From Streptosporangium sp. NBC_01755 (lineage in GTDB: Bacteria; Actinomycetota; Actinomycetes; Streptosporangiales; Streptosporangiaceae): 64,000 nucleotides of DNA. The notes under the pieces were generated by a model. It saw only the letters and a list, made by a program, of their open reading frames with translations, was not told the origin of the DNA and did no database searches. The DNA lies in assembly GCF_035917995.1 (NCBI RefSeq), contig NZ_CP109131.1:5270001-5334000 (forward strand), given 5' to 3'. Below are positions 5,716 to 59,065 of this stretch, piece by piece. The stretch's first letter is position 1, and each line of letters starts with the position of its first letter. The position numbers were made by a program, and so were the translations under genes.

Positions 5716-6765
5716 GTGGAATTCCCCGAACTCATGGTCATCGACGAGATCCAGCGAGCCCCCGAGCTGCTGCTCGCCATCAAGGAACAGGTGGACACCG
5801 ATCCGAGGCCGGGCCGATATCTGCTGACCGGATCGGCACGCGTGCTTGGGCTCCGGGGGCTTCCCGACGCGTTGCCTGGCCGGATGGAGACCATCGAGCT
5901 GTGGCCCTTCTCGCAGGGCGAGATCGACGGCACGGCCGACGGATTCGTGGACGCCATCTTCGCCGAGCCTGAAAATCTTCACCATACTTCCGGGGTCAGC
6001 CGTGCCGAGTACGCAGAACGGCTGGTCCGGGGTGGGTTTCCCGAGGCGGTCTCACGTCCCAACATCCGCAGACGGGAGCGATTCCTCGACTCGTACGTCG
6101 CGGATCTCATCGCGCGTGACGTGAGTCAGCTGGCGGAGATCGAGCGGACCTCGGAGATGCGGGCTCTGATCCGGCTACTGGCCGCCAGGTCGGGCCAGTT
6201 ACTGGTTCCCGGGTCCTTGAGCAACGGGATCGGGCTTTCCGCGAGCACGGTCCAGCGTTACCTTGGCCTGCTGGAAGAGGTCTTTCTGATCAAGCGGATC
6301 CCCGCCTGGTCACGCAACCTCGGCAGCCGTTCGACCGGAACGCCCAAGATGGCATTCGTCGATTCTGGGATCGCGGCGAACCTCCTGGGGGCGGATTCCA
6401 GGAGTCTGGTGCGTCCCGAGGGCGCCTTCGGCCCGCTCCTGGAGGGCTTCGTCCTCATGGAGTTGGCTCGCCAGCTCACATGGTCCGACGAACGCGTGGA
6501 GCTGTTCCACTACCGGACCAAGGACAAGGTGGAGGTCGACGTCGTCCTGGAGAATCGCCAGGGGCGCGTGGTCGGGATAGAGGTGAAGGCGTCGTCGACG
6601 GTGCGACCGGACGACTTCAAGGGACTGCGGCACCTCGCGAATCGGCTCGGCGACGATTTCGCGGTGGGAATCGTCCTCTACACGGGCGCACAGACGCTCC
6701 CGTTCGGCGACCGCATGCGCGCCATGCCGGTGAGCGCCCTCTGGGAGGTCGCTTTTAGCCGGTAA
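5716..6765 (+). pseudogene. 5'-truncated AAA/DUF4143 family ATPase
   Basis: The product is clearly homologous to the intact ATPase at 48191-49462. Shared segments include the Walker B region LMVIDEIQRAPELL, LLTGSARVLGL, LPDALPG, ELWPFSQGEIDG, and the C-terminal nuclease-like DUF4143 part (FHYRTKDKVEVDVVLE ... GIEVKAS). The first roughly 75 residues, including the Walker A loop, are missing. Homology begins near 5704 in the same frame, with no start codon or ribosome site before GTG 5716. The remaining 349 codons are uninterrupted. ATP binding should be lost, so I treat it as a remnant, though an expressed C-terminal piece cannot be excluded. Confidence 0.75.
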
Positions 6766-6801
6766 TTCCCAGCAGAATGGAGGTCGTCGGCTGAAAGGCC
6801 A

Positions 6802-7602
6802 ATGGGCGAGAGGCGAAAGGACGCGGGGTTGAACCACTTTCCACGGGTTCTCGGGGTACGTACGGGATATGACCCCGATCAGGTGGATCTGCTGGTCCGC
6901 CGGATCGAGGGCACCCTCGGCAGGGGCGCCCCGGAGGGGGAGCCGATCACCGCGGACGAGATCCGCGACGCCCGTTTCCGCGCGAAGCCCGGCGGCTACC
7001 ACGAGATCGCCGTCGACTTCGCGCTGGAGGCCTTCATCGTGGCGATCGAGACCCGGTATCCCGGCGCGGTTGACCGGGAGCCGGTGGCCGGTGGGTCATC
7101 GGAGCCGCTCGGCGCGATCGAGACCCGGTATCCCGGCGCGGTTGACCGGGAGCCGGTGGCCGGTGGGTCATCGGAGCCGCTCGGCGCGATCGAGACCCGG
7201 TATCCCGGCGCGGTTGACCGGGAGCCGGTGGCCGGTGGGTCATCGGAGCCGCTCGGCGCGATCGAGACCCGGTATCCCGGCGCGGTTGACCGGGAGCCGG
7301 TGGCCGGTGGGTCACCGGAGCCGCTCGGCGCCGACGAGGCCGAGGAGCACGCCGCCCGGGTCGAGCGGGTCGCCTTCAGGCCCGGGCGGCTCGGTATGGG
7401 CTACAACGAGGACCAGGTCGACGCCTTCCTCAACCGGGTCGCGGCCACCCTGCGCGGCACCATCGACCGGCCCCTCACCCCCGATGACGTGCGCGGAGTG
7501 AGGTTCGCCACGGTGATGCTGAGGCCGGGCTACGCGGTCAGCGAGGTCGACGGGTTCCTCGCCGACCTGGCGGGCGTCCTGGAGGCCCATCCCGGCCGTT
7601 GA
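6802..7602 (+). CDS. DivIVA-like protein with internal 24-residue repeats
   Basis: A 266-residue protein with DivIVA-type motifs in both ends: residues ~10-38 (FPRVLGVRTGYDPDQVD), ~53-75 (GGYHEIAVDFALEAF), ~190-215 (GMGYNEDQVDAFLNRV) and ~235-262 (GYAVSEVDGFLADL). Each has the GY...(E/Q)VD..L pattern of the DivIVA N-terminal lipid-binding region. Between the pairs lie four tandem copies of a 24-residue unit starting IETRYPGAVDREPVAGG. Long coiled coils typical of true DivIVA/Wag31 are missing. ATG 6802 follows an AAAGG site. A role at poles or septa is only inferred. Confidence 0.75.
   Translation: MGERRKDAGLNHFPRVLGVRTGYDPDQVDLLVRRIEGTLGRGAPEGEPITADEIRDARFRAKPGGYHEIAVDFALEAFIVAIETRYPGAVDREPVAGGSSEPLGAIETRYPGAVDREPVAGGSSEPLGAIETRYPGAVDREPVAGGSSEPLGAIETRYPGAVDREPVAGGSPEPLGADEAEEHAARVERVAFRPGRLGMGYNEDQVDAFLNRVAATLRGTIDRPLTPDDVRGVRFATVMLRPGYAVSEVDGFLADLAGVLEAHPGR
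7042..7329 (+). repeat. Four 72-bp tandem repeats inside the DivIVA-like gene
   Basis: Copies run 7042-7113, 7114-7185, 7186-7257 and 7258-7329. The first three appear identical; the fourth differs by one base (TCA to CCG context, Ser to Pro). The length is a multiple of three, so copy number can change without frameshift. Confidence 0.95.
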
Positions 7603-7606
7603 GTTG

Positions 7607-8101
7607 TCAGCGGGTGCCCCAGGAGTAGGTCTGCTTGTGAAGCTTGAGGTAGACGAAGGTCTCGGTGGCACGGACCGTGGGGGTGGCCCGGATCTTGCCA
7701 AGGATCTCCAGGAGGTGCTGGTCGCTCTCGCAGACGACCTCGACCATGATGTCGAGCGACCCGGCGGTCAGCACCACGTAGTCGATCTCCTTTATGGCCG
7801 ACAGTTCGTCGGCCACGATCTCCAGATCACCCTCGCACTTGATGCCGATCATGGCCTGGCGGGAGAAGCCCAGGGTCAGCGGGTCGGTGACCGCGACGAT
7901 CTGCATGACCCCCGCGTCGATCAGGCGCTGGACCCGCTGGCGTACCGCGGCCTCGGACAACCCCACGGCCTTGCCGATGGCGGCGTACGGCTTGCGTCCG
8001 TCTCCCTGCAGTTGTTCGATGATCTGCTTGGAGATCTCGTCGAGGACGACGGGTCCTGGCCTGGCGTCGTTGTCGCGGCGTACCTTGGGCGGCGTCGTCA
8101 T
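7607..8101 (-). CDS. Lrp/AsnC family transcriptional regulator
   Basis: A 164-residue regulator with an N-terminal winged helix-turn-helix (LDEISKQIIEQLQGDGR, then AIGKAVGLSEAAVRQRVQRL, residues ~20-65) and a C-terminal RAM ligand/dimerisation domain ending TETFVYLKLHKQ. It is divergent from the aminobutyraldehyde dehydrogenase and the polyamine importer, so it probably senses an amino acid or polyamine intermediate and controls that unit. A 7-bp inverted repeat in the divergent gap (8193-8226) is a candidate site. Its 3' end converges on the DivIVA-like gene, with 4 bp between the stop codons. Confidence 0.9.
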   Translation of the reverse strand: MTTPPKVRRDNDARPGPVVLDEISKQIIEQLQGDGRKPYAAIGKAVGLSEAAVRQRVQRLIDAGVMQIVAVTDPLTLGFSRQAMIGIKCEGDLEIVADELSAIKEIDYVVLTAGSLDIMVEVVCESDQHLLEILGKIRATPTVRATETFVYLKLHKQTYSWGTR

Positions 8102-32698: not shown

Positions 32699-34424
32699 CC
32701 CACAATGGGACCGGTCCTGAGACCGGAGTGGAACGCAGCTCGCTTACCTGATGAAGTTGGCCTGGGAGTTGCCGCAATGAGACCGGTCCTGGAGACCGGG
32801 GTGGAGCCCGTCTGGCTTATCACCACCGTTCTCGCGGGCTACGGCCGCAATGAGACCGGTCCTGGAGACCGGGGTGGAGCTGGCGGGGCACTGGGACGCT
32901 GGCCGGTCCTGGTTCCTGCCGCAATGAGACCGGTCCTGGAGACCGGGGTGGAGCCGGCGAGACCCGCATGATCCTTCCCGGTGCCCACCGTGCCGCAATG
33001 AGACCGGTCCTGGAGACCGGGGTGGAGCCGTCGTCGTTCTCTCCAGTACCGCTGAATCTCCTCGCCGCAATGAGACCGGTCCTGGAGACCGGGGTGGAGC
33101 GCGACGGCTATCTGTACCTGCGCTGCGCCGACTGCAACGCCGCAATGAGACCGGTCCTGGAGACCGGGGTGGAGCGGCTGGTACTCCTTGGCGGACGCAC
33201 CGCCGTGCTTCGTGCCGCAATGAGACCGGTCCTGGAGACCGGGGTGGAGCCCCGCGGCCGGGCCTGCGGGCGTCACCGTCAACATCGCCGCAATGAGACC
33301 GGTCCTGGAGACCGGGGTGGAGCTTTGACGCCAGGCAGGCGATCCCCCAGCCGGGGTAGGTGCCGCAATGAGACCGGTCCTGGAGACCGGGGTGGAGCTC
33401 GAGCCGTTCCTGACGTGGCTCTACCGGCAGGACATGCCGCAATGAGACCGGTCCTGGAGACCGGGGTGGAGCCCGGGGCGGCCGGTCGAGCACCGGCCGC
33501 CCATAAACGCCGCAATGAGACCGGTCCTGGAGACCGGGGTGGAGCGACAAGATGACTGAAGAGGAGATGCGCCAGGACTGCATGCCGCAATGAGACCGGT
33601 CCTGGAGACCGGGGTGGAGCTCGATGATGGCGTGCGTCCTCCACCCGTTCTGAAGGAGCCGCAATGAGACCGGTCCTGGAGACCGGGGTGGAGCGCGGTA
33701 TCGACCTGGAGGTCGAGCCGCACGAGGTGGTTGCCGCAATGAGACCGGTCCTGGAGACCGGGGTGGAGCACGGATCAGGTTTCCCGAATGACGATGTCCC
33801 AGCAGCCGCAATGAGACCGGTCCTGGAGACCGGGGTGGAGCTTCGGTGTCGGTCTGATCGCCCGGTACATCCATAGCCGCAATGAGACCGGTCCTGGAGA
33901 CCGGGGTGGAGCGATCGCCAGCACGTGAGTACGCGCCTGGCGCCCCATGCCGCAATGAGACCGGTCCTGGAGACCGGGGTGGAGCGACCCCACCAGGGCG
34001 GGCTACTGGCTCATCTCCGGAGCCGCAATGAGACCGGTCCTGGAGACCGGGGTGGAGCGGCGGCGATTCCAGATGATCGATGAGGACCGAGACGACGCCG
34101 CAATGAGACCGGTCCTGGAGACCGGGGTGGAGCCGGTGTCGCGGACGGCCTGGATCGCGGGGGCCATCGGCCGCAATGAGACCGGTCCTGGAGACCGGGG
34201 TGGAGCTTGGTGTTGCCCGTGGAGTTGTTCCAGAAGGTCAGGCCGCAATGAGACCGGTCCTGGAGACCGGGGTGGAGCGTTCAACGGTCCTCCTGGGGGT
34301 CGGCGGGAGTCTTGCGCCGCAATGAGACCGGTCCTGGAGACCGGGGTGGAGCCATCCTCGCGGCGAGGTCGAGCCCGGCCGGGGACGGCCGCAATGAGAC
34401 CGGTCCTGGAGACCGGGGTGGAGC
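32699..34424 (-). CRISPR. Type I-G CRISPR array, 23 identical repeats plus one degenerate
   Basis: The 37-bp repeat on the plus strand starts GCCGCAATGAGACC and ends GGGGTGGAGC. Perfect copies start at 32771, 32844, 32918, 32992, 33064, 33139, 33214, 33287, 33362, 33436, 33509, 33584, 33658, 33733, 33805, 33876, 33949, 34022, 34097, 34170, 34242, 34316 and 34388. The copy at 32699-32734 is degenerate with a 1-nt deletion and marks the trailer. Spacers are 34-38 nt. Read on the minus strand, the repeat contains CCGGTC-TCCAG-GACCGG (a 6-bp hairpin) and ends ATTGCGGC, so crRNA is made from the minus strand, co-directional with the cas genes. Confidence 0.98.
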
Positions 34425-34652
34425 GGTTTCTGAGCTGGGACTATCACAAATAGTGACTGAAGCGGATTGAAGAAATGTCTGCTTTAGGGTCTGGAGTGCT
34501 CGCTTGGACTTCGGAACCCCCCGGGGAAAGTGGGCATGCTTGGGGTTCCTAACCGCGACCCGGGGTGGACGGGCGGGGGTAAGGCGCTCCGGCAGGGAGA
34601 GGGCACGCGCTGTTGTGTTTTTCAAGTGGCGGATTGTGTGGATGGCCAAGGA
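34425..34652 (-). promoter_or_regulatory. CRISPR leader region
   Basis: 228 bp between the first repeat and the stop of the cas8-like gene, the leader by orientation. The 80 bp next to the repeat are AT-richer than the surroundings and hold the inverted repeat ACTAT-CACAA-ATAGT (34440-34454). No cas gene frame is present. It probably contains the array promoter; the exact boxes are unclear. Confidence 0.6.
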
Positions 34653-35588
34653 CTAGAGGAGCTTCACGGGGAGAGGGGACAGGACGCCGTCGAAGGTGCG
34701 GCCGGGGATGCGTTGCCTCTCCGCGCCGTAAACGTTGATGACCCCGAGGGCCGGCCAATGGGTGGAGCTTACGGTGGGGACGTGGTCAACGGGGGCGAAG
34801 ACGGGATGTTCTAGGAGGCACCTCACGGCGAGGGTGTTGAGGGCGGGGCGCCAGAGGGGCCACAGCATGACGGGGCCGGAGCGTCTCCGGTGCCAGAGGG
34901 TGGTGCGGACGCGCTGGCCGTCGCCGGTGATGCGGAGGAGGGGAAGTGCCATGGTGGCCAGCCAGGTGGCTCCGGGGACACCGCTCTCCCGGCCTGCGCG
35001 GCCTTCGGGGTCGTCGCTGTTGCTGCGCAGCACCCGGTGGTCGAGGTATTCGCCGGTGACCCCCTCGACCCGTCGCCAGCCGACCAGGGCCTCCAGGAGC
35101 CGCTCCGGCCTGCCCCGGACCGCCTCCAGGGGTTTCGCGAAGAAGGTCTGTAACGTCTGCTTACCGCTGGGAGCGGTGAACAGTGTGATGGCGCAGCGTT
35201 CCTGTTTGTCCAAGGCCAGGTCAGTGACCAGGGACGGCAACCAGGTCTCCGCTGCCTCGGGGTGATTCGTCGCCAGCTGGTGGAACTCCTCGCGGGAGCG
35301 ACGCAGTGGGTCCTTTCCCACCCCCGACGGCGGAGGAAAACCGGCTCCGCCGTCGGGGAGGATGGCGGACTCGGGGATCGACTCGATGACGCCGCGCAGG
35401 GCCTCCGCTATCTCCTCGGCCGTCTCGCACGGGCTGTGCAGGATCGCGCAGGCGGTGGAGTCGGAGAAGGAGAGCGCCGTCGGCATGCGGCAGACGTCGG
35501 CGCAGACGCGGAGCAAGCCGAGGGCGGCGAGGAAACCGAGGGGGGTCCGTCCATCAAGGGCCGGTAGTTCGATACTGAAGGTGGTCAT
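34653..35588 (-). CDS. Type I-G Cascade subunit, Csb3/Cas8-like (Csx17-related start)
   Basis: A 311-residue protein that is the last gene of the cas operon. It begins IELPALDGRTPLGFLAALGLLRV, a pattern seen at the start of type I-G/I-U large-subunit candidates (Csx17, Csb3). Later segments include FTAPSGKQTLQTFFAKPLE and PLWRPALNTLAVRCLLEHP. By position it should be the remaining Cascade subunit (Cas8 role, PAM recognition), as csb1 and csb2 provide Cas7 and Cas5-Cas6. ATG 35588 overlaps the stop of a 25-codon mini-ORF. The exact family is uncertain. Confidence 0.7.
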   Translation of the reverse strand: MTTFSIELPALDGRTPLGFLAALGLLRVCADVCRMPTALSFSDSTACAILHSPCETAEEIAEALRGVIESIPESAILPDGGAGFPPPSGVGKDPLRRSREEFHQLATNHPEAAETWLPSLVTDLALDKQERCAITLFTAPSGKQTLQTFFAKPLEAVRGRPERLLEALVGWRRVEGVTGEYLDHRVLRSNSDDPEGRAGRESGVPGATWLATMALPLLRITGDGQRVRTTLWHRRRSGPVMLWPLWRPALNTLAVRCLLEHPVFAPVDHVPTVSSTHWPALGVINVYGAERQRIPGRTFDGVLSPLPVKLL

Positions 35589-35662
35589 GTGCGCTCCTCG
35601 TTTTGGGTTGAGCGCGAGACGTCGGAGAACCGGACCATTGGCTCAGTGCTGAGAGCTGTCAT
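35585..35662 (-). CDS. 25-codon mini-ORF copying the Cas3 tail
   Basis: ATG 35662 overlaps the cas3 stop (ATGA) and its own TGA overlaps the ATG of the next gene (ATGA). The product ends VRFSDVSRSTQNEERT, against VRLADIWCSARSEERT at the Cas3 C-terminus. The last 15 bases, GAGGAGCGCACATGA, are identical and carry the ribosome site of the following gene. It is either a translational-coupling element or a duplication scar. Confidence 0.5.
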   Translation of the reverse strand: MTALSTEPMVRFSDVSRSTQNEERT

Positions 35663-38511
35663 GTGCGCTCCTCGCTCCGGGCCGAGCACCAGATGTCGGC
35701 GAGCCGGACGACGGCTTCCAGGCGGGCGAGTCCCCAGCGGCCGTAGCATCGGTTGAGTCGTTCGAACCGGGCGGGTGATGCCCAGTCGACCGATTGGGAG
35801 GTGTCGACCTCGATCGGCTGACCGTTCCGCTCGATTTTGGTGGTCGGGTCGGGGTCGATGACTGGGGGGAGTAGCGGGCGGCTCCGTCCATGGTGGCTGG
35901 CGATGAGGTGCAGGACCAGGTCGTGGTCAACGTCGGGCACCTCGGTCAGGAGGACCGTCGCGATTTGGGTGGAGAGCGCCTCGTGCCGCATGTCCGCCGG
36001 GTAGGACGCTCGGCGGCGGGCCTGCCGGAAGGCGGCGCGGTCGCCGGGGTTCATGCCCGACTTGGCGAGCGGCTCGTCGTTGGCCGCAGCCGCCCAGCGG
36101 TCGCCGCCGCACAACATGACCTGGAAGCGCGGGTCGCGTTTGCCCTCGTCGTGCCAGAGGGCGGCCAGTCCGACGGCCCGGATCGTCTCCGGCTCCATGC
36201 CTAGGTTGCGGGCGAACTCCTCGGCCTTCTCCGCCACCTCCCGCTGGTGGACGGCCAGGGAGAGCTTCCCGGTGGAGACGGAGGAGCCCGCAGCGGTGCT
36301 GTCCTCGCGGAAGGCGGCGGTGCCGGAGGAGAGCAGCAGGGTGCCGGTGTCGAGGTGCTCGATCAGCCGGGCACGGGAACCGCCGGTGAGCCGTCTGAGC
36401 ACCGCCAGATGCGGCAGCTCGTCGCGGCCCGGTACGGGGTCGCCCAGCGCGGAGCGGAGCGACCTGACCTGCCCCAGAGAGGGATTATCACGGTAGTCGG
36501 CGTTCAGGCGCTCGACCCAGGCCGCGACCTCGGAGACGAGGTCGGGGGCGTAGGTCTCCAGGGCGCGGACCAGGGTCGGGCCGACGCGGATCGTCGCCCC
36601 TCTCCGGACGGCGGATTGCGCGAGGTCGGCGATGTCGATGGTGGGCTCGCGGCTGCCGGGGTGCCAGCCGTAGCGGTCGCAGCCTCCGTGGGAGGCGGGA
36701 ACGACGATGGTGTCGGAAGGATGGATCCGGTCGGCCGCGATCACCTCGGAGTTGTCCCGTGAGCGGTAGCGGAGCACGGTCCTGCCGCCGGGCGGTACGG
36801 GGATGTCTGGGAGGTGCTCGGCCTCCAGATCGCTGATGTCGTCGCCGCCTGCCTCGCCGTTGAGCCAGCGTTGGACGGCGCGAAGGGGCAGTTCGATGCT
36901 CTCGGTGGAGGTCGGTGGCATCAGGCCGACGAGGTCGGGCCACAGCGTGTCGTCGTCGGGGAGGTCGCGCCAGAGGACCGTCACCTGTGGCGTTCCCCGG
37001 TTGAGGCCGTGCAGGTAGGGAGGCAGGGGGATGTCGTTCAGCGGGATCGGTGAGGTGCGTGTCCAGACGTCCAGGTGGGCTCGGCTCAGGGAGGGAACGT
37101 AGGGGCGGGGTTCGCGGAGTGTGGCCCACTGGCCGGGGGGCAGGGCGCGGACCAGTGTGCGCAGCGCCGAGGGGGAGGCGTCCATGCCCGGCTCCGCCGG
37201 GAGCCGAACCTTCGGCGAGTGGGGGAGCGGAGGGATGCGTTCGCGCAGCCAGGCCCAGGTCGCCGGGCGTGCCGTGTCGTAGACGCCGTCCGAGTCCGCC
37301 GAGCCGTGCAGCACGACCGCCGGGGCCACGGTCCGCTGGTCGCCGAGGCGGTTCAGCCGGCCGAGGCGCTGGATGAGCGCGGGTAGCGAGGCGGACTCGG
37401 TCACCAGCGCGTCCAGGTCGATGTTCGCGCCGACCTCGATTGTCTGGGTCGCCACCACGAACATCGGCTCGGCGGACGTGCGATCCCGGCCCGCCCTGAT
37501 CCGCTCGTAGTGTTCGGCCAGCAGGTAGTCGCGGTCTGTCGGGCGGATCTTGCCGGTCAACAGCACGCAGCGGCTCGCGGAGTCAGTGCGGAGAAGCTCG
37601 AACACGGCCCGTGCCCGCGCCACAGTGTTGACGACGACCCCGACGACCGGATGCTCTCGCTGGAGCTCCCGCGCCCAGTGGGCGAGGGCGCCAGACATCG
37701 CCTTCGCCGTGTTGGCCTTGGTGGTCGGTACGTCCACCAGGTGGAGCTCTTTGGCCGCCCTCAGCCTCCTGGACGCCTCACGGTGGTTCTCGTCCACGTC
37801 GGTGATGCGGTGCACGTCGGCGGTGCCGGACTCAGGGCTGGCGGACATGCTCACCACGGTCGGACGGATCGGGGCCGGTGTCTCGTCGCAGGCCGTGGCC
37901 CTGCGCACACTGGCCAGGAACGCCTCGGAGAGGTGGGCCTCGTCCACCACGATCAGGCTGTCGGTACCCGCCAGGGCCGCGTCGATCGGGCGCAGGTGCT
38001 TTCCGACGCCGTAGCCGCGGAAGAAGAACCGGCTGCCCACCTGGTCGACGGTTCCGACGACGATGGCGTGCCGGTCAGGCCGCTCGATCCATCGCCATGA
38101 CCAGTTGACCCCGCCGCGCATCCGGGTGACCTCCACCGGTCTGTCGGCGGTGTCGCCGTCCACCCGGAGGGCGGTGGCGACCTCGGCCGCGCGGCTGTCG
38201 TCTTCGGGGGTGCGTAGGGCTTCGGCGATCTTCTCGGCGTGCCGGTACGCCTCGTCGACGATCAGCCGGCGGTCGACCACGAGGAAGATCCGCCTGGCGA
38301 CTCCGGCTCGCGCCTCAGCCCTGCCGAGGGCCGCCGCGAAGACGGCGACGTCGATCACGGAGGTCTTCCCCAGGCCGGTGGGGACGTCGATCAGCTCTGG
38401 CCACCCTTCCTGGACCACCCGGTCGAGCAGCGCGGTCTGCCAAGGGAAGGGCTCGTACCCGTGAACCTCTTGGTAGAAGGCGGGAAAGTCCGTGACGGTG
38501 AGCTCACTCAT
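35659..38511 (-). CDS. cas3: Cas3 helicase-nuclease, type I-G (C-terminal HD)
   Basis: A 950-residue protein. The N-terminal SF2 helicase has Walker A VPTGLGKTS (residues 43-51), DEAH near 190, SMSASPE (motif III) and QRLGRLNRLGD (motif VI). The HD nuclease is at the C-terminus: HQREVAEKAEEFARNLG near 755, ALWHDEGKRDPRFQ near 785, RHEALSTQIA and LIASHHGR. This helicase-then-HD order is typical of type I-G (I-U). ATG 38511 overlaps the stop of a 31-codon mini-ORF. It unwinds and degrades target DNA recruited by Cascade. Confidence 0.93.
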   Translation of the reverse strand: MSELTVTDFPAFYQEVHGYEPFPWQTALLDRVVQEGWPELIDVPTGLGKTSVIDVAVFAAALGRAEARAGVARRIFLVVDRRLIVDEAYRHAEKIAEALRTPEDDSRAAEVATALRVDGDTADRPVEVTRMRGGVNWSWRWIERPDRHAIVVGTVDQVGSRFFFRGYGVGKHLRPIDAALAGTDSLIVVDEAHLSEAFLASVRRATACDETPAPIRPTVVSMSASPESGTADVHRITDVDENHREASRRLRAAKELHLVDVPTTKANTAKAMSGALAHWARELQREHPVVGVVVNTVARARAVFELLRTDSASRCVLLTGKIRPTDRDYLLAEHYERIRAGRDRTSAEPMFVVATQTIEVGANIDLDALVTESASLPALIQRLGRLNRLGDQRTVAPAVVLHGSADSDGVYDTARPATWAWLRERIPPLPHSPKVRLPAEPGMDASPSALRTLVRALPPGQWATLREPRPYVPSLSRAHLDVWTRTSPIPLNDIPLPPYLHGLNRGTPQVTVLWRDLPDDDTLWPDLVGLMPPTSTESIELPLRAVQRWLNGEAGGDDISDLEAEHLPDIPVPPGGRTVLRYRSRDNSEVIAADRIHPSDTIVVPASHGGCDRYGWHPGSREPTIDIADLAQSAVRRGATIRVGPTLVRALETYAPDLVSEVAAWVERLNADYRDNPSLGQVRSLRSALGDPVPGRDELPHLAVLRRLTGGSRARLIEHLDTGTLLLSSGTAAFREDSTAAGSSVSTGKLSLAVHQREVAEKAEEFARNLGMEPETIRAVGLAALWHDEGKRDPRFQVMLCGGDRWAAAANDEPLAKSGMNPGDRAAFRQARRRASYPADMRHEALSTQIATVLLTEVPDVDHDLVLHLIASHHGRSRPLLPPVIDPDPTTKIERNGQPIEVDTSQSVDWASPARFERLNRCYGRWGLARLEAVVRLADIWCSARSEERT

Positions 38512-38603
38512 GCTGAGCCCTCCTTGGGGAGGAAAAGTCCGAGGTGGCGCATGGAGCCTGCGATCTCCGGTTTCGCGACCGGCCGGTTGGTGAGGTCGCT
38601 CAT
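38508..38603 (-). CDS. 31-codon mini-ORF copying the Csb2 tail
   Basis: ATG 38603 overlaps the csb2 stop and the TGA overlaps the cas3 ATG, both as ATGA. The product, from NRPVAKPEIAGSMRHLGLFL to the end, closely follows the Csb2 C-terminus (DRPVVGPVIAGSMRYLGLGL, then FVPEEGSG). Similarity is also clear at DNA level. The copied tail contains the AAGGAGGG ribosome site for cas3. Confidence 0.55.
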   Translation of the reverse strand: MSDLTNRPVAKPEIAGSMRHLGLFLPKEGSA

Positions 38604-39982
38604 CCAGAGCCCTCCTCGGGGACAAAGAGGCCGAGTCCGAGGTAGCGCATGGAACCTGCGATCACCGGCCCCACGACCGGCCGGTCGAAGGTGACCCGGG
38701 CGTGCACGATGGGTTTCTTCGGCCGGTTGGGTGGGAGAGAGCCGGGGCGAGGCCGCCAGATCGCGCCGCCGGTCAGCGGGGCCGTCGAGATCTCGACCTC
38801 GGTGACATCGGGGAAACCGGCCCGGCGCAGCGACTTGGCGACCATCTGCTCGTACGAGCGGCCGGGGCGGGCGAAGCTGTCGGTCATCATCGGGGTGGCC
38901 GTGACCCAGGTGCGGGTCCCCGCCTGGCGGCCGGTCCATCGGCCGCGACGCAGGGTGCGCAGGTTCTGGCCCTGGCTGAGCCGTACCGGTTCGCCGGACC
39001 AGGGAGTGAGTCTGGTCAGCGGATCGGCCATGACGGCCTTGGCCAGTTGGGTCCAGTCCTCGGCGGGCATGTGGCGGGGCAGCGCCAGTGCCACTCCCAG
39101 CAGGTGGCCGTCGGAGTGCTGTTGGTCGACGTCGGGAAGCGCGAGGAAGGCGACGTGCGTCCTGTCGTCCGCCCCGTGCCCGCTCACCTGGGCGGGAACC
39201 GGGTCGGTGACCCGGGAGATGACGGCTTTGCGCAGGGCGAGCGTGAGCCGGGCGACCTGGTCGCCGTTGATGCGGGCGCTGGGTCGTTCGAATCCCCAGA
39301 TGATGAGGTCGTCCCATGGGGACAGGTGTGTCGGGACAGGTTCCGGCGTCGCCACGACCGGTGAGTACGGCAGCGCCCGCGCGGCCTCCCACGCCCTCCC
39401 GCCACGGTCGTAGGCGTTCTGGAGCGCGTCCGTGTATCCGGCGTAGGGCACACGCAGCTCGATCGCGCCGGGGGTGCCGAGCGTGACCGGAGCCAGCTCC
39501 GACCACGCCGGTTCGTCCTCGGGCAGGGAGCCGGTCACGCTCACCTCGGCCTGGCTGGTCGAGCGGCCGACGTACGGCACCCGCCGGGCCAGCGCGCTGA
39601 GCGTGGCCAGCACTCCGGGATCGGGGTCGGCGCCTGGCCAGATCACGGCGAACCGGTCGCAGGCCGGGGTGACGAAGGCGCGGCTGCGAGCCCCGTTCGT
39701 GCGGCCAGGCCAGGACTGGCTGCCGGGTTTCTGCTCCCTCTGGTTCGTCACCACGTAGGAGTCGGTCCTGCCCGGCCGTACGTTGTGCATGGCCGCGCGC
39801 ACCACCGGGGCTCCGGCACGTTCCAACCAGCGCAGGGCGTGCCAGTCGCCCGCCTCCACCGCCGAGGCGGCCAGGGCGCAGAACAGCCGGGCGGGATGAG
39901 GGGGCCATTCGGCCCGGCTGGGCTGGGTGTCCCCTGCGTCGTAGCGGCCGTGGCGCAGCCGCACCGTGAGAGTGAGTGCCAC
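38600..39982 (-). CDS. csb2: Type I-G Csb2 (Cas5-Cas6 fusion, GSU0054 family)
   Basis: A 460-residue protein starting LTVRLRHGRYDAGD and EWPPHPARLFCALAAS, the hallmark of the Csb2/GSU0054 family, which combines Cas5 (5' handle binding) and Cas6 (crRNA processing) in type I-G. The C-terminal ferredoxin-like part contains KSLRRAGFPDVTEVEIS and the conserved PVVGPVIAGSMRYLGLGLF ending. ATG 39982 starts 7 bp after the csb1 stop. The stop overlaps the mini-ORF that repeats its tail. Confidence 0.92.
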   Translation of the reverse strand: MALTLTVRLRHGRYDAGDTQPSRAEWPPHPARLFCALAASAVEAGDWHALRWLERAGAPVVRAAMHNVRPGRTDSYVVTNQREQKPGSQSWPGRTNGARSRAFVTPACDRFAVIWPGADPDPGVLATLSALARRVPYVGRSTSQAEVSVTGSLPEDEPAWSELAPVTLGTPGAIELRVPYAGYTDALQNAYDRGGRAWEAARALPYSPVVATPEPVPTHLSPWDDLIIWGFERPSARINGDQVARLTLALRKAVISRVTDPVPAQVSGHGADDRTHVAFLALPDVDQQHSDGHLLGVALALPRHMPAEDWTQLAKAVMADPLTRLTPWSGEPVRLSQGQNLRTLRRGRWTGRQAGTRTWVTATPMMTDSFARPGRSYEQMVAKSLRRAGFPDVTEVEISTAPLTGGAIWRPRPGSLPPNRPKKPIVHARVTFDRPVVGPVIAGSMRYLGLGLFVPEEGSG

Positions 39983-39988
39983 CGCTGC

Positions 39989-41155
39989 CTACTCCTCGTC
40001 GACGGAGTGGGCGAAAGCGAACTCGATCGCCTGCTGGAGCGAGGGGATCGGGGTGACCTCGATGATGTCGTCGGCCATCGGCACACCCAGCCGGGCGGCC
40101 TCTTCGCGTAGCTCGTGGTAGGCGTCCAACGCCTCTCGTACCGACACTTCGATCTCGTCCAAGCTACCGCCGGGCAGCTCCAGGCCGACCGTCTCGGACG
40201 CCTTCGCCAGGTCGCAGCCTGAGCGCAGCCAGGCGGAGGGGCGCCCGAACGCCAGCCGGTCGCCGACGAGGGCGAGGGCGGCGAGCGTCGCGCGGCTGGC
40301 CGTGGCGGCTTCGGCCGGGGCGTCTCCGAAGCGGAGGCGTTCAAGGCCCGCGAAGGAGATGCTCGCCATCCGGCGGATCTCCCTGACGGTGGCTCCACCG
40401 GGAACGGGGTTGGGTGCGATGTTGCCGTGCCCGATCTCGCTCAGCTTGCCGCCCTTGGCCTTCTGGCCGTCGGCGACGAACTTCCACTGGTTCTCCGCCT
40501 TGGTCTTGTCGTCGACCGAGCCGGTGAGGTTCTGTGGGTCGAGCCGTCCGCCGCGTCGCGCGCCGAAGTGAGGGGCTACGCCGTACATGGTCGCGGTGTA
40601 CAGCCGGGCGAACTTGGGCCACCGGCCCTTGCGGTGGGAGTCCCACGCGCCGAGCACCAGAGACAGGGGCTCCCGCTCGTAAAGTGGCCGGACGTCGGTC
40701 ACGCTGACGGCGCGAAGCCGCTCGCCGACCGGGCTCTGGTCGAAGCGGATCCCCCCGATCGTGCTGTCGCGCAGGTAGGCGTCGGCGTAGCGGTGCGGGA
40801 AGTCGAGCGAGGTCAGCCGTATCTCGCCCCGGGACGTCTTCGTCCGCAGCTCGAACATCGGCAGGGTGAGCCGGCCCGCGTCGCGGGCATCGCGCATGGC
40901 CTCTTCCAGCCGGTTGGACTGGGACTGCTCCTGGTCGATCGTCACGGTGCCCACCTGCTCACCGTCGAGGAGGCGATCGGCGACAATGTACTTCTTCGTC
41001 TGGTCCTTCTCGTTTTTGTCGACGGGGAAGGTGGGGGGCATCACGATGTTGCCCGCACCGCCGACCGGCTGATACCTGGCCTGCACCACCAGCGCCGTGT
41101 GCTTCCTGTCATCGCCGAGCGCGTCCAGAAGACGTGCCGAAAGACTCGTGCTCAC
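39989..41155 (-). CDS. csb1: Type I-G Csb1 (Cas7, GSU0053 family)
   Basis: A 388-residue Cas7-family backbone protein. YQPVGGAGNIVMPPTFP near residues 32-48 and LTSLDFPHRYADAYLRDS are family hallmarks. GTG 41155 has AAGGAGG 7 nt upstream and is preferred to an ATG at 41290, which would add 45 unrelated residues. It is the first gene of the csb1-csb2-cas3-csb3/cas8 operon, which leads directly into the array. No cas1, cas2 or cas4 is found on either side. Confidence 0.93.
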   Translation of the reverse strand: MSTSLSARLLDALGDDRKHTALVVQARYQPVGGAGNIVMPPTFPVDKNEKDQTKKYIVADRLLDGEQVGTVTIDQEQSQSNRLEEAMRDARDAGRLTLPMFELRTKTSRGEIRLTSLDFPHRYADAYLRDSTIGGIRFDQSPVGERLRAVSVTDVRPLYEREPLSLVLGAWDSHRKGRWPKFARLYTATMYGVAPHFGARRGGRLDPQNLTGSVDDKTKAENQWKFVADGQKAKGGKLSEIGHGNIAPNPVPGGATVREIRRMASISFAGLERLRFGDAPAEAATASRATLAALALVGDRLAFGRPSAWLRSGCDLAKASETVGLELPGGSLDEIEVSVREALDAYHELREEAARLGVPMADDIIEVTPIPSLQQAIEFAFAHSVDEE

Positions 41156-41638
41156 CGCGAACACCTCCTTGTGTTGCCTGACGGCGAGAAATCGATTGGC
41201 GAAAGAGTGGCAGGCGGGACCGACAGAATCGGACCCACCTGTGATGTCGGTGGCCATGAAGTCGAACAGCAGGCTTGTGCGGGAGGGCATCGAGGCCCGG
41301 CCGGTTCACCGGATGGACCATAACCTTTCGGTTTGTTTCGGTCCTTCCACCTACATATAACGGATATCCGAATATTGAGAATGATCAACCGGCATGCGGG
41401 GCAGGGATCGTAGCGCCCTCGAACAATGATCTGGTTCCGAGTTTTGTGCCTACCCGATAATTGCCATTAATGGTGACTAAATCCTTGAAACCTGCCGATT
41501 GTCGGCGCATCCCTGGCGGATATGGCAAAGTGTTTCATTGATATCGGTAGGCGTGGGGGAACTGTCCAGGCGGTGTCGGGTCCGGGATTGCCCTTCGATT
41601 ACCTGTACGGGGAGTTAACGTTTAGCGACCGAGGTAAA
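41156..41638. promoter_or_regulatory. Divergent promoter region, cas operon / acyltransferase
   Basis: About 480 bp without a gene. AT-rich sequence at 41325-41400 holds the palindrome CGGATATCCG and a plus-strand promoter candidate: TTGTTT (41333-41338), 17-bp spacer, TATAAC (41356-41361). The csb1 promoter must also lie here, but I cannot place its boxes with confidence. Confidence 0.45.
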
Positions 41639-44306: not shown

Positions 44307-44915
44307 GGCATGCCTACTGAGGCGATCATGTGCGCCCAGTAGAACTGGAGGTGAAGCCGTGACATAGCGGCTGATCTGCATGTTCGTAAGCTCGTCGTCG
44401 CTTGCCGGTGAAAGTCCGGTCCGGGTAGCTGCCAGGAGGCCCGGTAGCAGGCTGGCGGCTTCGTCTGGAAACGGGCGGGGTCGAAGCCCAGCGTCAAAAG
44501 CCCTTAAGGGGGAGCGACGATGCGGTCCGTAGCATGACGCGAAGCCTGCGGCGTCGTTACTCAGCCGTCTTCGGACGGGACAAGGGAGAGCCGAGCCCCT
44601 CGTGATCGGGGTGAAGGCCATGGAAGCGGCGAAGAGCCTGGAAATTGCAGCCGCGAAGAACTCCCCGGCGTATGGGGCGCGGAACGTATCGATAGTGACG
44701 GCGGGAACTGGGGAGGCCCTCCCCGGCCCGGTGACCTGCGGAAGGTGTTACCGGAGCGTGGCGTCCTATAACCGGTCAACGCCGGGAAGTGGATTGCTGG
44801 CCGGGTGGGCGTCGGAGGCGGCCGTAGTACTGCTTGAGCCGACCGGACAACATAACCGGCGGTGAGGGAAGGGCCGCTACTTCGTCGATGCATATTGAGG
44901 TGGAGGAGGGGCTCG

Positions 44916-46295
44916 GTGAGTGCCGTTTTGGCTATTCCCGCCGCCGTGGGGCCGCGTGTTCCGCGTGATCCGGTCCGCGCCTTGCAGCATGTGCTCTACC
45001 GGGCGGCCAAGGCCGATCCCGGACGTCGGTTCCACGCGCTCATGGACAAGGTCTATCGCAGAGACGTTCTGGAGCGCGGGTGGGTCATGGTGCGCAGCAA
45101 CAACGGCGCACCGGGCATCGACGCGACCACGCTGGCCGACATCGAGGAGTACGGGATCGTCCGGCTTCTTGAGGAGTTGGCCGCGGAACTTCGGCAGGGC
45201 CGGTATCGGCCATTGCCCGCGCGCCGGGTGATGATCCCCAAGCCTGGGCTGAAGGACGAGTACCGGCCGTTGTCGATTCCCGCTGTTCGGGATCGGATCG
45301 TGCAGGCCGCTGTGAAGATCGTGTTCGAACCGGTCTTCGAGGCGGACATGGCTGATTGCTCATTCGGGTTTCGCCCGAAGCGCTCAGCACACGATGCTCT
45401 GCAAGTGCTCATTGAGGAGCAGGCGCGGGGCCGCCGGTGGGTGGTCGAGACGGACATCGCCAACTGCTTTTCGGCGATTCCGCACGATGAGTTGATGCGT
45501 GCGATCGAGGAACGCGTCTGCGATCAGTCGCTCCTGAAGCTCCTGCGGGTGATTCTGCGCGCCGGGGTGATGGAGGACGGACAGATCCGGCGAGAGGTCA
45601 CCGGCACGCCACAAGGCGGCGTGGTTTCACCCGTCCTCTGTAACGTCTACCTGCACCGATTGGATCGGGCGTGGGACGAGGCGGACGGCGTGCTGGCCCG
45701 CTATGCCGACGACGCGATCGTGATGTGCTGGTCCCGCGGTCAAGCCGAGCGGGCCCTGGCCCGCCTGACGGAGCTGCTGGCGGCACTCGGTTTGGAGCCG
45801 AAGGCCGCCAAGACCCGCATCGTGCACCTGGAGGTCGGTGGGGAAGGCCTGGACTTCCTGGGCTTTCACCACCGGCTGGTGCGCTCACGCGGGTTCAACG
45901 GGAAACGGCCGTTCGTTTTCCTCGCTCGCTGGCCCTCAGACAGGGCGATGCAACACGCCCGCGACCGGATCCGTGACCTCACGGACGGCCGCAGGCTGCT
46001 GCTTCGCACCGAAGCGATCACCAAGGAGGTCAACCTGTTCCTGCGGGGATGGGCTGGCTATTTCCGGTACGGGCATTCTGCCCGGCGCTTTAGCAAGATC
46101 AGAGAGTTCGCCTGGATGCGCCTGGCGCTGTTCCTCAGCCGAAAACACCGGCGCAGCCGGAGCTACGGCCGGGGCGTGCTGAAACGCTCGCTCAGCGATC
46201 TCGGCTTGATCAGCCTGTATGGAATCGTCGTCGCGCCCAGGGCGGGCAAGCCCTGGCGGGAAAGGCCGAATGCCGGCGGTGAACGACGTCGGTGA
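44916..46295 (+). CDS. ltrA: Group II intron reverse transcriptase/maturase
   Basis: A 459-residue intron-encoded protein. RT blocks include NNGAPGIDATTLADIE, YRPLPARRVMIPKPG, RPLSIPAVRDRIVQ, GFRPKRSAHDALQ, TGTPQGGVVSPVLCNVYL and the catalytic RYADDAIVM (near residues 261-269). The maturase (X) domain follows (FLRGWAGYFRYGH). No HNH endonuclease motif is visible after it, so retrohoming would use replication-fork primers. GTG 44916 follows AGGAGGGG. The frame is intact, and the stop overlaps domain V by 2 nt. Confidence 0.95.
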   Translation: MSAVLAIPAAVGPRVPRDPVRALQHVLYRAAKADPGRRFHALMDKVYRRDVLERGWVMVRSNNGAPGIDATTLADIEEYGIVRLLEELAAELRQGRYRPLPARRVMIPKPGLKDEYRPLSIPAVRDRIVQAAVKIVFEPVFEADMADCSFGFRPKRSAHDALQVLIEEQARGRRWVVETDIANCFSAIPHDELMRAIEERVCDQSLLKLLRVILRAGVMEDGQIRREVTGTPQGGVVSPVLCNVYLHRLDRAWDEADGVLARYADDAIVMCWSRGQAERALARLTELLAALGLEPKAAKTRIVHLEVGGEGLDFLGFHHRLVRSRGFNGKRPFVFLARWPSDRAMQHARDRIRDLTDGRRLLLRTEAITKEVNLFLRGWAGYFRYGHSARRFSKIREFAWMRLALFLSRKHRRSRSYGRGVLKRSLSDLGLISLYGIVVAPRAGKPWRERPNAGGERRR

Positions 46296-47800: not shown

Positions 47801-47991
47801 GAAGCGATCGCGCCGGCCAAGGTAGGACCTTAATCGGCGTGTCACCACGAAACAGGGCAAACCCAAGCTGCTACGGCATGGGCTCTCCACCTGCTGCGAG
47901 GGTCTGGGATGGACGGCGATCGCCCCTGTCCTCACGCTAGGGAAAACACGTCCAAATGGACACGACTTGTGCGTTCAGCAGGACGTGGATT

Positions 47992-48166
47992 GTGTGGCTG
48001 ATCGGATGTGACTTGTGTGTTCAATGGAATGTGAGTTGTGTGGCTGATCGGATGTGACTTGTGCGTTTGGTGGGGCGTTGGTTGTGTGGCTGATCGGATG
48101 TGACTTGTGTGTTCAATGGGACGCGGATCATGCGGCTGATCGGACATGAAATGCTCGTCTGATCAG
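47992..48166 (+). repeat. 46-bp tandem repeat upstream of the AAA ATPase
   Basis: Units start at 47992, 48038, 48084 and (partial) 48130, each beginning GTGTGGCTGATCGGATGTGA. A divergent partial unit precedes them from about 47960. The cores are nearly identical; the last third varies. The array ends 25 bp before the ATPase start codon, so it may serve as an operator or promoter array for that gene. Confidence 0.9.
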
Positions 48167-50576: not shown

Positions 50577-51302
50577 TCAGCCGAGGCCTATCGGCTGGTG
50601 AGGGCGCCTGGCATCGTCCGGGCCGGGCTGGATGGGAACCGTCACACCCCGGTCGTTCCCCGGCTTCCGGTGGTCGAGGCGACCGGTCACGCCGTCGCCC
50701 TCCCGGTGTCCTGATCGCAGGGCGGCGAGGAAGACCAGCGTCATCTCGGCGAGCAGCAGCAGGCGCTGCGCCAGGCCGTAGTGGTCGGGGCCGCCGATCA
50801 GATCCGAGATCAGCGAGCCCGGGTGGGCGGCCAGGAACCAGGCCAGCAGCACCACGGAGGCGACAGCGGCCCCCGCCAGTGCCCGGCTCCCGGACCGGCG
50901 GCCGAGCATCCACCCCGCGCAGGGGAGCGCGGTGAAGACCACGGCAGCCGACCAGCGGTGGATCTCCCCGCCGATCGAGGTGACACCGGGCGCCGCGTCG
51001 GTGGGGAACGTGGCGGTGAGCAGGAGTCCCAGTGCCGAGGCGACGAACAGTGCGCGCGCCGCGGCGCCGCGCACCGGGTCCACCCGGGCCAGCAGGTAGG
51101 CGACCCAGAGGCAGCCCATGGCCAGGGCGATCGTGCCGCCGGCCATCACCCAGGCGCTGTCGCCGCGCAGTGCGTACTCGCTGACCAGGCTCTTCGTCGG
51201 GTTCACCGCGCCTGCCGAGACCATGTGCGCGTAGCCCATCGCGGCCAGGGCGAGCAACGGACCGGCCACGCCCGGCAGCCGGGACGACGGGTTCTCGTTC
51301 AT
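50577..51302 (-). CDS. DUF998 membrane protein
   Basis: A 241-residue protein with about six transmembrane helices and DUF998 features (NPTKSLVSEYALRGD near residue 35, GEIHRWSAAVVFTALPCAGW). The C-terminal ~45 residues are hydrophilic and Arg/Pro-rich. Function unknown. Its ATG (51302) overlaps the stop of a 12-codon frame that repeats the tail of the upstream glycosyltransferase, so it probably belongs to the DMT transporter-GT4-DUF998 operon. Confidence 0.8.
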   Translation of the reverse strand: MNENPSSRLPGVAGPLLALAAMGYAHMVSAGAVNPTKSLVSEYALRGDSAWVMAGGTIALAMGCLWVAYLLARVDPVRGAAARALFVASALGLLLTATFPTDAAPGVTSIGGEIHRWSAAVVFTALPCAGWMLGRRSGSRALAGAAVASVVLLAWFLAAHPGSLISDLIGGPDHYGLAQRLLLLAEMTLVFLAALRSGHREGDGVTGRLDHRKPGNDRGVTVPIQPGPDDARRPHQPIGLG

Positions 51303-51488
51303 CGCGCCGCCTCACGGTGAGTCGCTGTGGAGTTCATCGCCCCGCCTCCCGATAAATCGTCTCGGAGTTCATTGGATCGCCTCCGGTGCTCAGCCCCGGA
51401 GTTCACCGCGCCATGTCCTGGTAGATCACCGCGGAGTTCGTCGCCCAGGCTCCCGGCGCCCCGCCCCGGAGTTCGTTTCGAGGGGTCA
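51299..51488 (-). repeat. Serial copies of the GT4 tail and stop codon (35-bp units)
   Basis: GGAGTTC words at 51329, 51364, 51398, 51433 and 51468 mark five units of 34-35 bp between the GT4 stop and the DUF998 start. Read on the minus strand, two units are complete mini-ORFs: MNSETIYREAGR (51334-51372) and MNSTATHREAAR (51299-51337). Each ends in ATGA, overlapping the next start. A third reads VIYQDMAR before its stop (51403-51405). All resemble the GT4 ending AIYREAAR. Confidence 0.8.
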
Positions 51489-52724
51489 CCGCGCCGCCTC
51501 CCGGTAGATCGCCTCGAACCTGGCCAGGGAGGCATGGTGGTCGTGGGTCAGCGCGATGGCACGGCTCGCGGCGCCCATCGAGGCGCGCAGTCCGGGGGAG
51601 GCGAGCAGCGTGGTCAGGTGCCGTGCCAGCTCCTGGACATCGCCCGGTGAGAACAGGCCGCCGTTCTCGCCGGGCCGTACCAGGTGCGGCAGGGCCATCG
51701 CATCGGCGGCGACGACCGGCAGGCCGGTGGCCATGGCCTCCAGCGTGGCGATGCTCTGCAGCTCCGCGACGCCCGGCATGGCGAAGACGTCGGCGGCGGC
51801 GTACGCCTGGGGCAGAGCCTCGTCCGGTACGAACCCGAGGAAGGTCACCCGGTCGCCGACCCCGATCCGGTCGGCCAGCCTGGCGAGCGAGGCCTGCTGC
51901 CCACCGGTACCGACCAGTGCGATCTGCGCGTCGGCGCCGTTGAGCACGTGCGGCAGGGCGCGGATGAGCTCGTCCAGCCGCTTCTCCTCGTCCAACCGGC
52001 CGACGAACAGGATCGTGTCCCGATCGGGCAGGCCGAAAGCCCCGCGCGCCCACGCCTTCGGCTCGGCACGCGGCTGGAACCTCGCCAGGTCGATGCCGCA
52101 GGAGACGGGCTCCACCGGCGGGCCGAAGCCCTTCGCGGTGAGCAGTCCCGCCGCGATGCCGGTGGGCGTGGTGACATGGTCCGCCCGGGAGAAGACCCGG
52201 TTGAAGTCCTTCCAGGCCAGCGCGCCCGCTTTGGTGCGGAGCCGTTCGGGGATGTGCGCGAACTGGAAGAGATTGTCCGGCATGAAATGGTTGGTCGCCA
52301 CGACGGGGATGCCGGCACGCCGGGAGGCGGAGATCGCCGCGCGGCCGACGATGAAGTGCCCCTGCGTGTGGACCACGTCAGGGGAGATCTCGCTGATGAG
52401 CCGGTCCAGCCGGGTCGGCACCGCGAGCCGCATGGTCGGGTGGACCAGCGTCGGCGCCGAGCGCAGCCGGTGCACGGTCACCCCCTCCACCTGCTCGGTC
52501 CTGGCCGGCCCGAAATCCGAGGCGCACACCACGTGGACCTCGTTGTCCCGCTCGGCCAGGCCCCGGGCCAGCCGGTGGGTGAAGTAGGCGGCGCCGTTCA
52601 CGTCCGGTGGGTAGGTGTCGGTGGCGATCAGCACCCGGCGAGGCCGGGTGGGAAGGATGGCGGGGGCCCGCGCGGGGATCGGCAGGGCGGTGGCGGACGG
52701 CATGGCCATCAAGACTCCGTTCAT
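51486..52724 (-). CDS. Glycosyltransferase family 4
   Basis: A 412-residue GT-B fold enzyme. The N-terminal half has VLIATDTYPPDVNGAAYFTHRLARGLAERDNEVHVV, and the C-terminal nucleotide-sugar half has ILFVGRLDEEKRLDELIRAL and AMPGVAELQSIATLEAMATGLPVVAADAMALPHLV (an E-x7-E-type motif). This is the pattern of actinobacterial mannosyl/glucosyl transferases acting on lipid or glycan acceptors. ATG 52724 overlaps the DMT transporter stop by 4 nt. Its C-terminal tail is repeated downstream. The acceptor is unknown. Confidence 0.87.
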   Translation of the reverse strand: MNGVLMAMPSATALPIPARAPAILPTRPRRVLIATDTYPPDVNGAAYFTHRLARGLAERDNEVHVVCASDFGPARTEQVEGVTVHRLRSAPTLVHPTMRLAVPTRLDRLISEISPDVVHTQGHFIVGRAAISASRRAGIPVVATNHFMPDNLFQFAHIPERLRTKAGALAWKDFNRVFSRADHVTTPTGIAAGLLTAKGFGPPVEPVSCGIDLARFQPRAEPKAWARGAFGLPDRDTILFVGRLDEEKRLDELIRALPHVLNGADAQIALVGTGGQQASLARLADRIGVGDRVTFLGFVPDEALPQAYAAADVFAMPGVAELQSIATLEAMATGLPVVAADAMALPHLVRPGENGGLFSPGDVQELARHLTTLLASPGLRASMGAASRAIALTHDHHASLARFEAIYREAAR

Positions 52725-58558: not shown

Positions 58559-58980
58559 ATGCACCTCAGGAAACTCGCCGTGGCCGCCGTGCCGGCGCTC
58601 GGCGGGACGATGCTCGCCACGACACCGGCCCACGCGGCCAACATCGCGACGAACCCGGGCTTCGAGGACGGGCTGAGCGGCTGGACCTGCTCGTCCTCCT
58701 CGGGCGTGACGACCGTCTCCTCGCCCGTACACGGCGGGACCAAAGCGCTACAGGCCACCCCGGCAGGGAACGACACCGCCCGATGCCAGCAGACGGTCAG
58801 CGTCAGACCGTCCTCGGCCTACACCCTGTCGGCCTGGGTCAGGGGCGGCTACGTCTTCCTCGGCGCGACCGGAACCGGCGGGACCGACCCCAGCACCTGG
58901 GGGTCCTCGCCGTCGTCCTACACCCAGCTGTCCACCTCGTTCACCGGCGAGGTTTCCCCCTCCGCGTCCGCAGGTCTCAC
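58559..58980 (+). pseudogene. Second chitinase-like gene, N-terminal fragment
   Basis: ATG 58559 starts a signal peptide (RKLAVAAVPALGGTMLATTP, AHAA) and a carbohydrate-binding module (NIATNPGFEDGLSGWTCSSS, GTKALQATPAGNDTARCQQT, SAYTLSAWVRGGYVFLGATG). The module ends within YTQLSTSFTG, and the frame passes through GC-rich repeats into the next gene with no stop. This N-terminus is typical of a family-18 chitinase. The catalytic domain is missing. Confidence 0.7.
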
Positions 58981-59065
58981 GGGGCGGTCTCATGGGTCGG
59001 TCTCGGGGGGTCCGGTCTCATGGGTCGGTCTCAGGGGGTCCGGTCTCACGGGGCGGGTACACCCT
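58975..59065 (+). repeat. GGTCTCATGGG short repeats at the truncation point
   Basis: Overlapping copies of GGTCTCATGGGTCGGTCTC and GGGGGTCCGGTCTCA occur three to four times where the chitinase fragment ends. They may have mediated or followed the deletion. Confidence 0.6.

Follow-up and report, generated by a model that had tools for sequence, protein, structure and literature searches.

The two mini-ORFs that lie between csb2 and cas3, and between cas3 and the next gene, in the type I-G CRISPR operon of Streptosporangium sp. NBC_01755 are products of local duplication, the duplicated unit being in each case the whole coupled junction: the tail of the upstream gene (gene A), an SD-like site, the overlapping ATGA and the opening codons of the gene that follows (gene B). 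Sequence comparison suggests that these are probably lineage-specific junction duplications, tolerated when termination-reinitiation coupling between the two genes was preserved. The window referred to below is the whole 64,000-nt stretch of chromosomal DNA that was analysed. Within it, the operon runs on the minus strand from csb1/cas7 through csb2, cas3 and a gene of 311 amino acids to a CRISPR repeat array (32844-34426), with the mini-ORFs, here termed relays, placed as follows:

39989-41290, minus strand: csb1/cas7, the first gene of the operon (TIGR02570, PF09617)
38600-39982, minus strand: csb2, the gene upstream of junction 1 (TIGR02165, E 7.7e-90)
38508-38603, minus strand: relay mini-ORF 1, 31 codons, MSDLTNRPVAKPEIAGSMRHLGLFLPKEGSA, with ATGA joins to csb2 (38600-38603) and cas3 (38508-38511)
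35659-38511, minus strand: cas3 of type I-G (TIGR02621, E 1.2e-232)
35585-35662, minus strand: relay mini-ORF 2, 25 codons, MTALSTEPMVRFSDVSRSTQNEERT, with ATGA joins to cas3 (35659-35662) and the next gene (35585-35588)
34653-35588, minus strand: Cas3-extension family gene, 311 aa (NF049934, E 3.6e-94)

The presence together of csb1/cas7, csb2 and Cas3g genes, adjoining a CRISPR array, places the operon in type I-G. Its last gene had been labelled cas8-like in a preliminary description of this DNA, and is instead a member of the NCBIfam type I-G 'Cas3-extension family'. The Cas8g/Csx17 large subunit is named as an effector component of type I-G (PMC9638904). No recognised Cas8g/Csx17 gene was seen in the operon (34600-41300 of the window), and the corresponding profile, TIGR04113, had no match in the whole genome, but had none in the control genomes either. 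An ORF that by eye resembles a group II intron reverse transcriptase/maturase is located near the operon on the plus strand (44862-46295).

The coordinates of both mini-ORFs, their lengths of 31 and 25 codons and their 4-nt overlaps at each end proved exact as first described, such that a 4-nt stop/start overlap is found at every mini-ORF join of the two cas junctions. Tandem Repeats Finder, at a score of 30, reported neither cas junction, hence local alignment was used, which resolved each junction into two copies:

38589-38685, minus strand: junction 1, copy 1, comprising the csb2 tail, SD-like GAGGAGGG, ATGA and the head MSDLT
38497-38587, minus strand: junction 1, copy 2, comprising the csb2-tail copy, SD-like AAGGAGGG, ATGA and the cas3 head MSELT
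35649-35709, minus strand: junction 2, copy 1, comprising the cas3 tail, SD-like GAGGAG, ATGA and the head MTALS
35575-35635, minus strand: junction 2, copy 2, comprising the cas3-tail copy, identical CGAGGAGCGCACATGAC and the head MTTFS

The copies at csb2-cas3 aligned with a score of 56 (identical in 76 of 91 ungapped columns, with a single 6-nt indel) at a period of 92 bp, and those at the junction of cas3 with the extension gene with a score of 33 (47 of 61 identical) at a period of 74 bp, against maxima of 22.5 and 21.5, respectively, in 1000 dinucleotide shuffles per pair. Both ranked top for local self-alignment among 126 neighbouring operon windows, and the original observation that the mini-ORFs copy the tail of the upstream protein is upheld. 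The copied segment does hold an SD-like site, as had been noticed, but it also includes the first codons of gene B, which had been overlooked (MSDLT/MSELT at junction 1 and MTALSTE/MTTFSIE at junction 2). A 17-nt block that includes the SD-like site and start is identical between the copies of junction 2, where 14 of 61 positions differ over the whole aligned stretch; at junction 1, the frame has been kept despite the 6-nt indel and 15 substitutions in 91 columns. The cas3 frame upstream of the ATG at 38511 stays open as far as a TTG at 38625, inside csb2, hence cas3 could also start in a manner that bypasses relay 1; the Cas3 proteins of relatives align from the ATG at 38511. At junction 2, no upstream in-frame start that would bypass relay 2 exists. 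Both copied starts of the cas operon are preceded by SD-like sites, so that gene B could also be initiated independently.

Csb2 was identified in 29 of the family's 341 genomes, this one among them, and as the nearest Csb2 is only 62% identical, the gain of the mini-ORFs is not closely datable. Apart from this genome, 28 had a Csb2 match; junctions were read in 26 of these, with the omission of G020 (weak Csb2 match) and G277 (L057; no cas3 match), and none of the 26 had a mini-ORF at either cas junction. An in-frame start overlapped the csb2 stop or lay at most 3 nt away in all 26. Cas3 and the Cas3 extension were encoded by a single ORF in 13 relatives and by two directly joined genes in the other 13, twelve of which were found by script to have an in-frame start overlapping the cas3 stop or at most 3 nt from it; the thirteenth (L031), for which the script had searched only upstream of the alignment, has an in-frame GTGA at -4 that was located by hand. 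In one relative (L035), junction 1 reaches a tandem score of 23.5 and retains the direct join. The preliminary description had proposed aligning the junctions of related type I-G loci, and held that relatives with direct joins and no mini-ORF would point to a neutral local duplication; once aligned, direct joins or fusion without a mini-ORF are what the 26 relatives display.

No closer relative of the operon was found when genome contigs were searched with Cas3 alone, the alignment search returning 26 loci, the best with 64% identity in its best segment. Among plasmids, at least 25 records match Cas3; of the matches listed, the first 17 cover 89-99% of it at 35.4-38.6% identity, and one beyond these reaches 44.1% identity over 55% of Cas3. 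In L052 (also L080, Sinosporangium siamense), the csb2 and cas3 matches are fragmented, a TAG interrupts the csb2 match, and the type I-G locus looks broken. Loci from other families (L061, L065, L068, L073, L079, L082 and L093-L097) were used in pooled scans only, outside the junction table: the gene-end repeat scan took in all of them, and the counts of mini-ORF chains and of junction tandem repeats took L058-L083 together with L093, L095 and L097.

The relay anatomy is not confined to CRISPR genes. In a sample of this chromosome made up of the window plus 95 additional stretches of 20 kb (1.96 of 8.15 Mb), it was found at at least five more junctions. The junctions concerned, including one identified by eye and a third within the window, are:

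L-threonine dehydrogenase and glycine C-acetyltransferase (tdh-kbl): two 25-codon relays
ABC-transporter gene pair (ABC-ABC): two relays of 25 codons
unassigned gene and sulfotransferase: one 29-codon relay
ABC ATPase and aldolase-like gene: one 9-codon relay
epimerase-like gene and acyltransferase: one 6-codon relay
histidine kinase and response regulator (HK-RR, L145): relays of 25 and 18 codons, identified by eye, as was the response regulator
51403-51489, minus strand: third window junction, relay 1, 28 codons, VTPRNELRGGAPGAWATNSAVIYQDMAR, with GTGA joins, after a glycosyltransferase gene (51486-52724)
51299-51406, minus strand: third window junction, relay 2, 35 codons, with an ATGA join to a DUF998 gene (50577-51302)

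The third window junction has a repeat of period 104, and its tail copy is weak and diverged (17.0 vs a permutation maximum of 20). Spacings of -4 or -1 occur in 192 of the 1072 codirectional gene pairs of the sample. Chains of joined mini-ORFs numbered 38 in this genome (G000) against 30.14 expected from shuffled spacers, 7 against 5.31 in the congener G012 and 1 against 0.71 in other loci. Joined chains per se are therefore not in clear excess over shuffles; most of those without a tail copy may be due to chance, and chains alone prove nothing. When the 45 joined chains were assessed for tail copies, six exceeded and one equalled the maximum of 1980 mismatched pairings.

Local repeats scoring at least 24 numbered 40 at the 1419 credible gene ends of the genome sample, some of them off the stop, and none were detected at 154 credible gene ends in the relatives' loci. 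Of the 946 codirectional junctions here, 67 carried tandem repeats (score of at least 22), as did 11 of 208 in G012. The controls, which are small, gave 2 of 140 for a Streptomyces avidinii plasmid (300 kb) and 0 of 108 for named actinobacterial loci (391 kb, including one congener). Duplications thus seem to be in plentiful supply in these two congeners. It had been argued that duplications at two junctions of one operon speak against accident, but as junction duplications are frequent in this genome, the pairing is less telling. Strong tandem arrays elsewhere in the window, at 7042-7331 (72 bp x 4), 47964-48144 (46/92 bp) and 58973-59056 (28 bp x 3), are in keeping with a repeat-rich genome. 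A tandem array of small genes was also observed in L169 (approximately 6744-7790), where small ORFs of about 200 nt repeat every 264 bp.

At the few orthologous junctions read in congeners, relays are variously present and absent, and what persists is the joined frame. The tdh and kbl genes are directly joined by TGATG in 13 of 16 congeners; the relays are of 25+25 codons in G000, 56 in G002 and 18 in G013, within spacers totalling 153, 169 and 55 nt, respectively, and each reaches kbl exactly. For ABC-ABC, five congeners were read: the two relays of G000 are replaced by a single 11-codon relay of differing sequence in G002 and by a direct join in G007 and G014, the second protein of G003 (L231) has a long N-terminal extension, and the first protein of G013 (L229) a C-terminal extension built of repeats. 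PhoH-YbeY has one relay in G001, two in G012 and a different 32-codon mini-ORF in G000, which overlaps ybeY by 11 nt and is the exception to the stop/start overlaps of 4 or 1 nt found at each join. The G000 relays at HK-RR and at the epimerase-acyltransferase junction are missing from both congeners read, G002 and G013, which have direct joins.

The periods of the duplications follow a distinct pattern. An automatic test selected duplications that extend over a stop overlapping a start codon, with gene B starting at the copied join. All six relay cases thus obtained had a period of 2 mod 3 (74, 77, 74, 86, 26 and 17 bp), as did five of five at the strictest threshold. The csb2-cas3 junction (92 bp), in which 3 of 10 core bases differ, was missed by the automatic test and was added by hand, bringing the count to 7 of 7. 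At 30 gene ends where the duplication involves no start overlap, here called uncoupled, periods of 0, 1 and 2 mod 3 numbered 13, 8 and 9. The relay cases differ from these uncoupled ends with a Fisher p of 0.0026 without csb2-cas3 and 0.0011 with it, and the ratio of 7 to 0 against period 1 alone has a binomial probability of 0.008, values that pertain to 6-7 cases from a home-made gene caller and to a frame test devised after the first cases, themselves included, had been seen. The script would have counted a period of 1 as a relay case and a period of 0 in the direct class, hence the absence of period 1 is not built in.

At a score of 16, direct joins gave two, zero and zero cases for 0, 1 and 2 mod 3, with the duplications located inside gene B (e.g. 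the N-terminal repeats of L121) and one of the two (L108, score 18) being weak. The corresponding counts at the same score were 2/1/2 for start-overlapping stops where B starts elsewhere, and 3/1/1 for those without a near codirectional gene. Several junctions stand outside the seven: HK-RR (L145), with two relays recognised by eye, where the second gene leaves the stretch and was uncalled, along with L208 of G012, L188 and the third window junction, in which the tail copy is weak or lacking.

These observations may be brought together as follows. Small tandem duplications would often arise around gene ends in the genus. If the period at which a coupled junction is copied equals 2 mod 3, and no stop intervenes, a mini-ORF running from the copied B start to the copied A stop would be left without further steps; a ribosome ending gene A would restart on this mini-ORF and then on gene B, and coupling would be carried across the insert. 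A period of 0 mod 3 would lengthen a neighbouring protein, and with a period of 1 the ribosome, having restarted, would enter B in the wrong frame; no period of 1 mod 3 was seen where B starts at the copied join. The csb2-cas3 and cas3-extension mini-ORFs would be two old cases. In both E. coli and Haloferax, coupling has been described as dropping steeply as the genes lie further apart, with about 20 nt almost abolishing it (PMC10666635). Genes separated by 70-150 nt should therefore be uncoupled unless the spacer is translated and ends at the start of B, and relays would supply such a spacer. We infer translation of the relays, and selection on coupling as the cause of the period pattern. 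A broader proposition, that coupled junctions in Streptosporangium are self-copying units whose inserts are filtered by translation, surviving as one or more relays at 2 mod 3 or as in-frame extensions of A or B at 0 mod 3, and not at 1 mod 3, appears to us evenly poised between right and wrong. Stepping stones for reinitiation and scars of repeated duplication had originally been offered as alternatives; the evidence fits both together, as two sides of one thing.

The same duplications could be neutral scars, that is, the tandem-repeat noise of a repeat-rich genome, in an operon where cas3 and its neighbour use ribosome sites of their own and the frames are due to chance in GC-rich DNA. We consider this rather unlikely, though it deserves serious attention: tandem repeats are common in this genome and in G012 (67/946 and 11/208 vs 2/140 and 0/108 in the controls), mini-ORF chains alone scarcely exceed shuffles and no peptide constraint was seen. 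Chance frames do not, however, sit well with the count of 2 mod 3 periods (all 7 relay cases vs 9 of 30 uncoupled ends), with three unequal tdh-kbl inserts that are every one exactly joined, or with the retention of frame at junction 1 through an indel and 15/91 substitutions. Improbable, in our judgement, is adaptive tuning, whereby relays would have been selected to cut the output of Cas3 and the Cas3 extension relative to Cascade through loss of a fraction of the ribosomes at each step. Such selection would agree with relays at two consecutive junctions of one operon and with the lower yield inferred for each extra step, but the relays are missing from the 26 relatives, and the fusion of Cas3 with its extension in 13 of these argues for equal, not reduced, output of the extension. 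The tuning of stoichiometry, as suggested in the preliminary description, is unsupported as a specific role, given that relays of like anatomy are found at junctions of threonine catabolism, ABC transporters, two-component systems and other unrelated genes, and that at the junctions read they differ between congeners.

A mobile repeat akin to the mycobacterial interspersed repetitive units (MIRUs), inserted at start codons, would likewise bring -4 joins and a mini-ORF, but is very hard to reconcile with the sequence searches. When compared with the whole genome (40 of 461 first-look candidates scored), the operon DNA matched itself and one 37-base stretch (89%, inside cas3), and hence no homologous repeat dispersed over many junctions was found; none of the seven relay sequences was matched beyond its own locus (E 0.001, 2.36 Mb), and among themselves they matched at best at E 0.08. 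We hold equally little expectation that the relays encode functional peptides mimicking the Csb2 and Cas3 tails. The copied tails do correspond to conserved parts of the parent proteins (Cas3 tail positions 935-943, and the csb2 tails), but 8 of 12 changed codons in junction 1 and 9 of 10 in junction 2 are nonsynonymous, as are 34 of 43 over six tail-copy comparisons, a sample of few sites and low power. Substitutions at codon positions 1, 2 and 3 numbered 17, 21 and 15 over the six comparisons, two of which share the tdh tail, with no third-position excess among these few sites, and the mini-ORFs are missing in relatives. The comparison of mini-ORFs with parent tails that had been recommended as a check thus gave no sign of peptide constraint, and the relay peptides look unconstrained. 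A structured RNA or attenuator was set aside, as the two cas junctions fold no more stably than shuffles (z -1.06 and -0.12) and Rfam gave no match at gathering score in 34500-41600.

Should the frame rule hold in a census, tolerated junction duplication would constitute natural, sequence-only evidence of selection on reinitiation at overlapping stops and starts. If true, it would also offer a route for operon spacers to lengthen and small ORFs to arise with coupling kept. Mini-ORFs that copy a tail do not necessarily encode functional peptides, whether they adjoin CRISPR genes or others, and for CRISPR biology itself the finding is a local curiosity.

In the open-licence PMC literature, no description was found of locally copied junctions that make relays, though several known systems share features with them. 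The stop/start overlaps are the same as those of termination-reinitiation coupling at ATGA/TGATG, whereas in plain coupling no relay mini-ORF made of a copied junction sits between the coupled genes. Short upstream ORFs, whose own translation delivers ribosomes to the next gene (PMC12548453), and engineered bicistronic designs, in which a short ORF does so (PMC5995908), are comparable as far as these sources describe them; the relays differ in being natural, intercistronic, born of duplication and sometimes two in a row. An intercistronic small ORF in Salmonella promotes translation of a downstream Mg2+ transporter gene, but that ORF reportedly acts by aborting translation, and the title and opening of the abstract mention no copied junction (PMC8092293).

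MIRUs are the nearest known kind to these junction duplications. Their unit lengths, 77 and 53 bp, are both 2 mod 3. They are described as seemingly mobile repeats that insert at start codons with -4 spacing, the -4 coupling of their mini-ORF likely limiting the effect of the insert on expression (PMC12548453). The relays resemble them as short repeats at gene starts that hold a mini-ORF joined at -4 spacing; unlike the dispersed, seemingly mobile MIRU family, each repeat here is a copy of the junction in which it lies, and the relays have no sequence in common.
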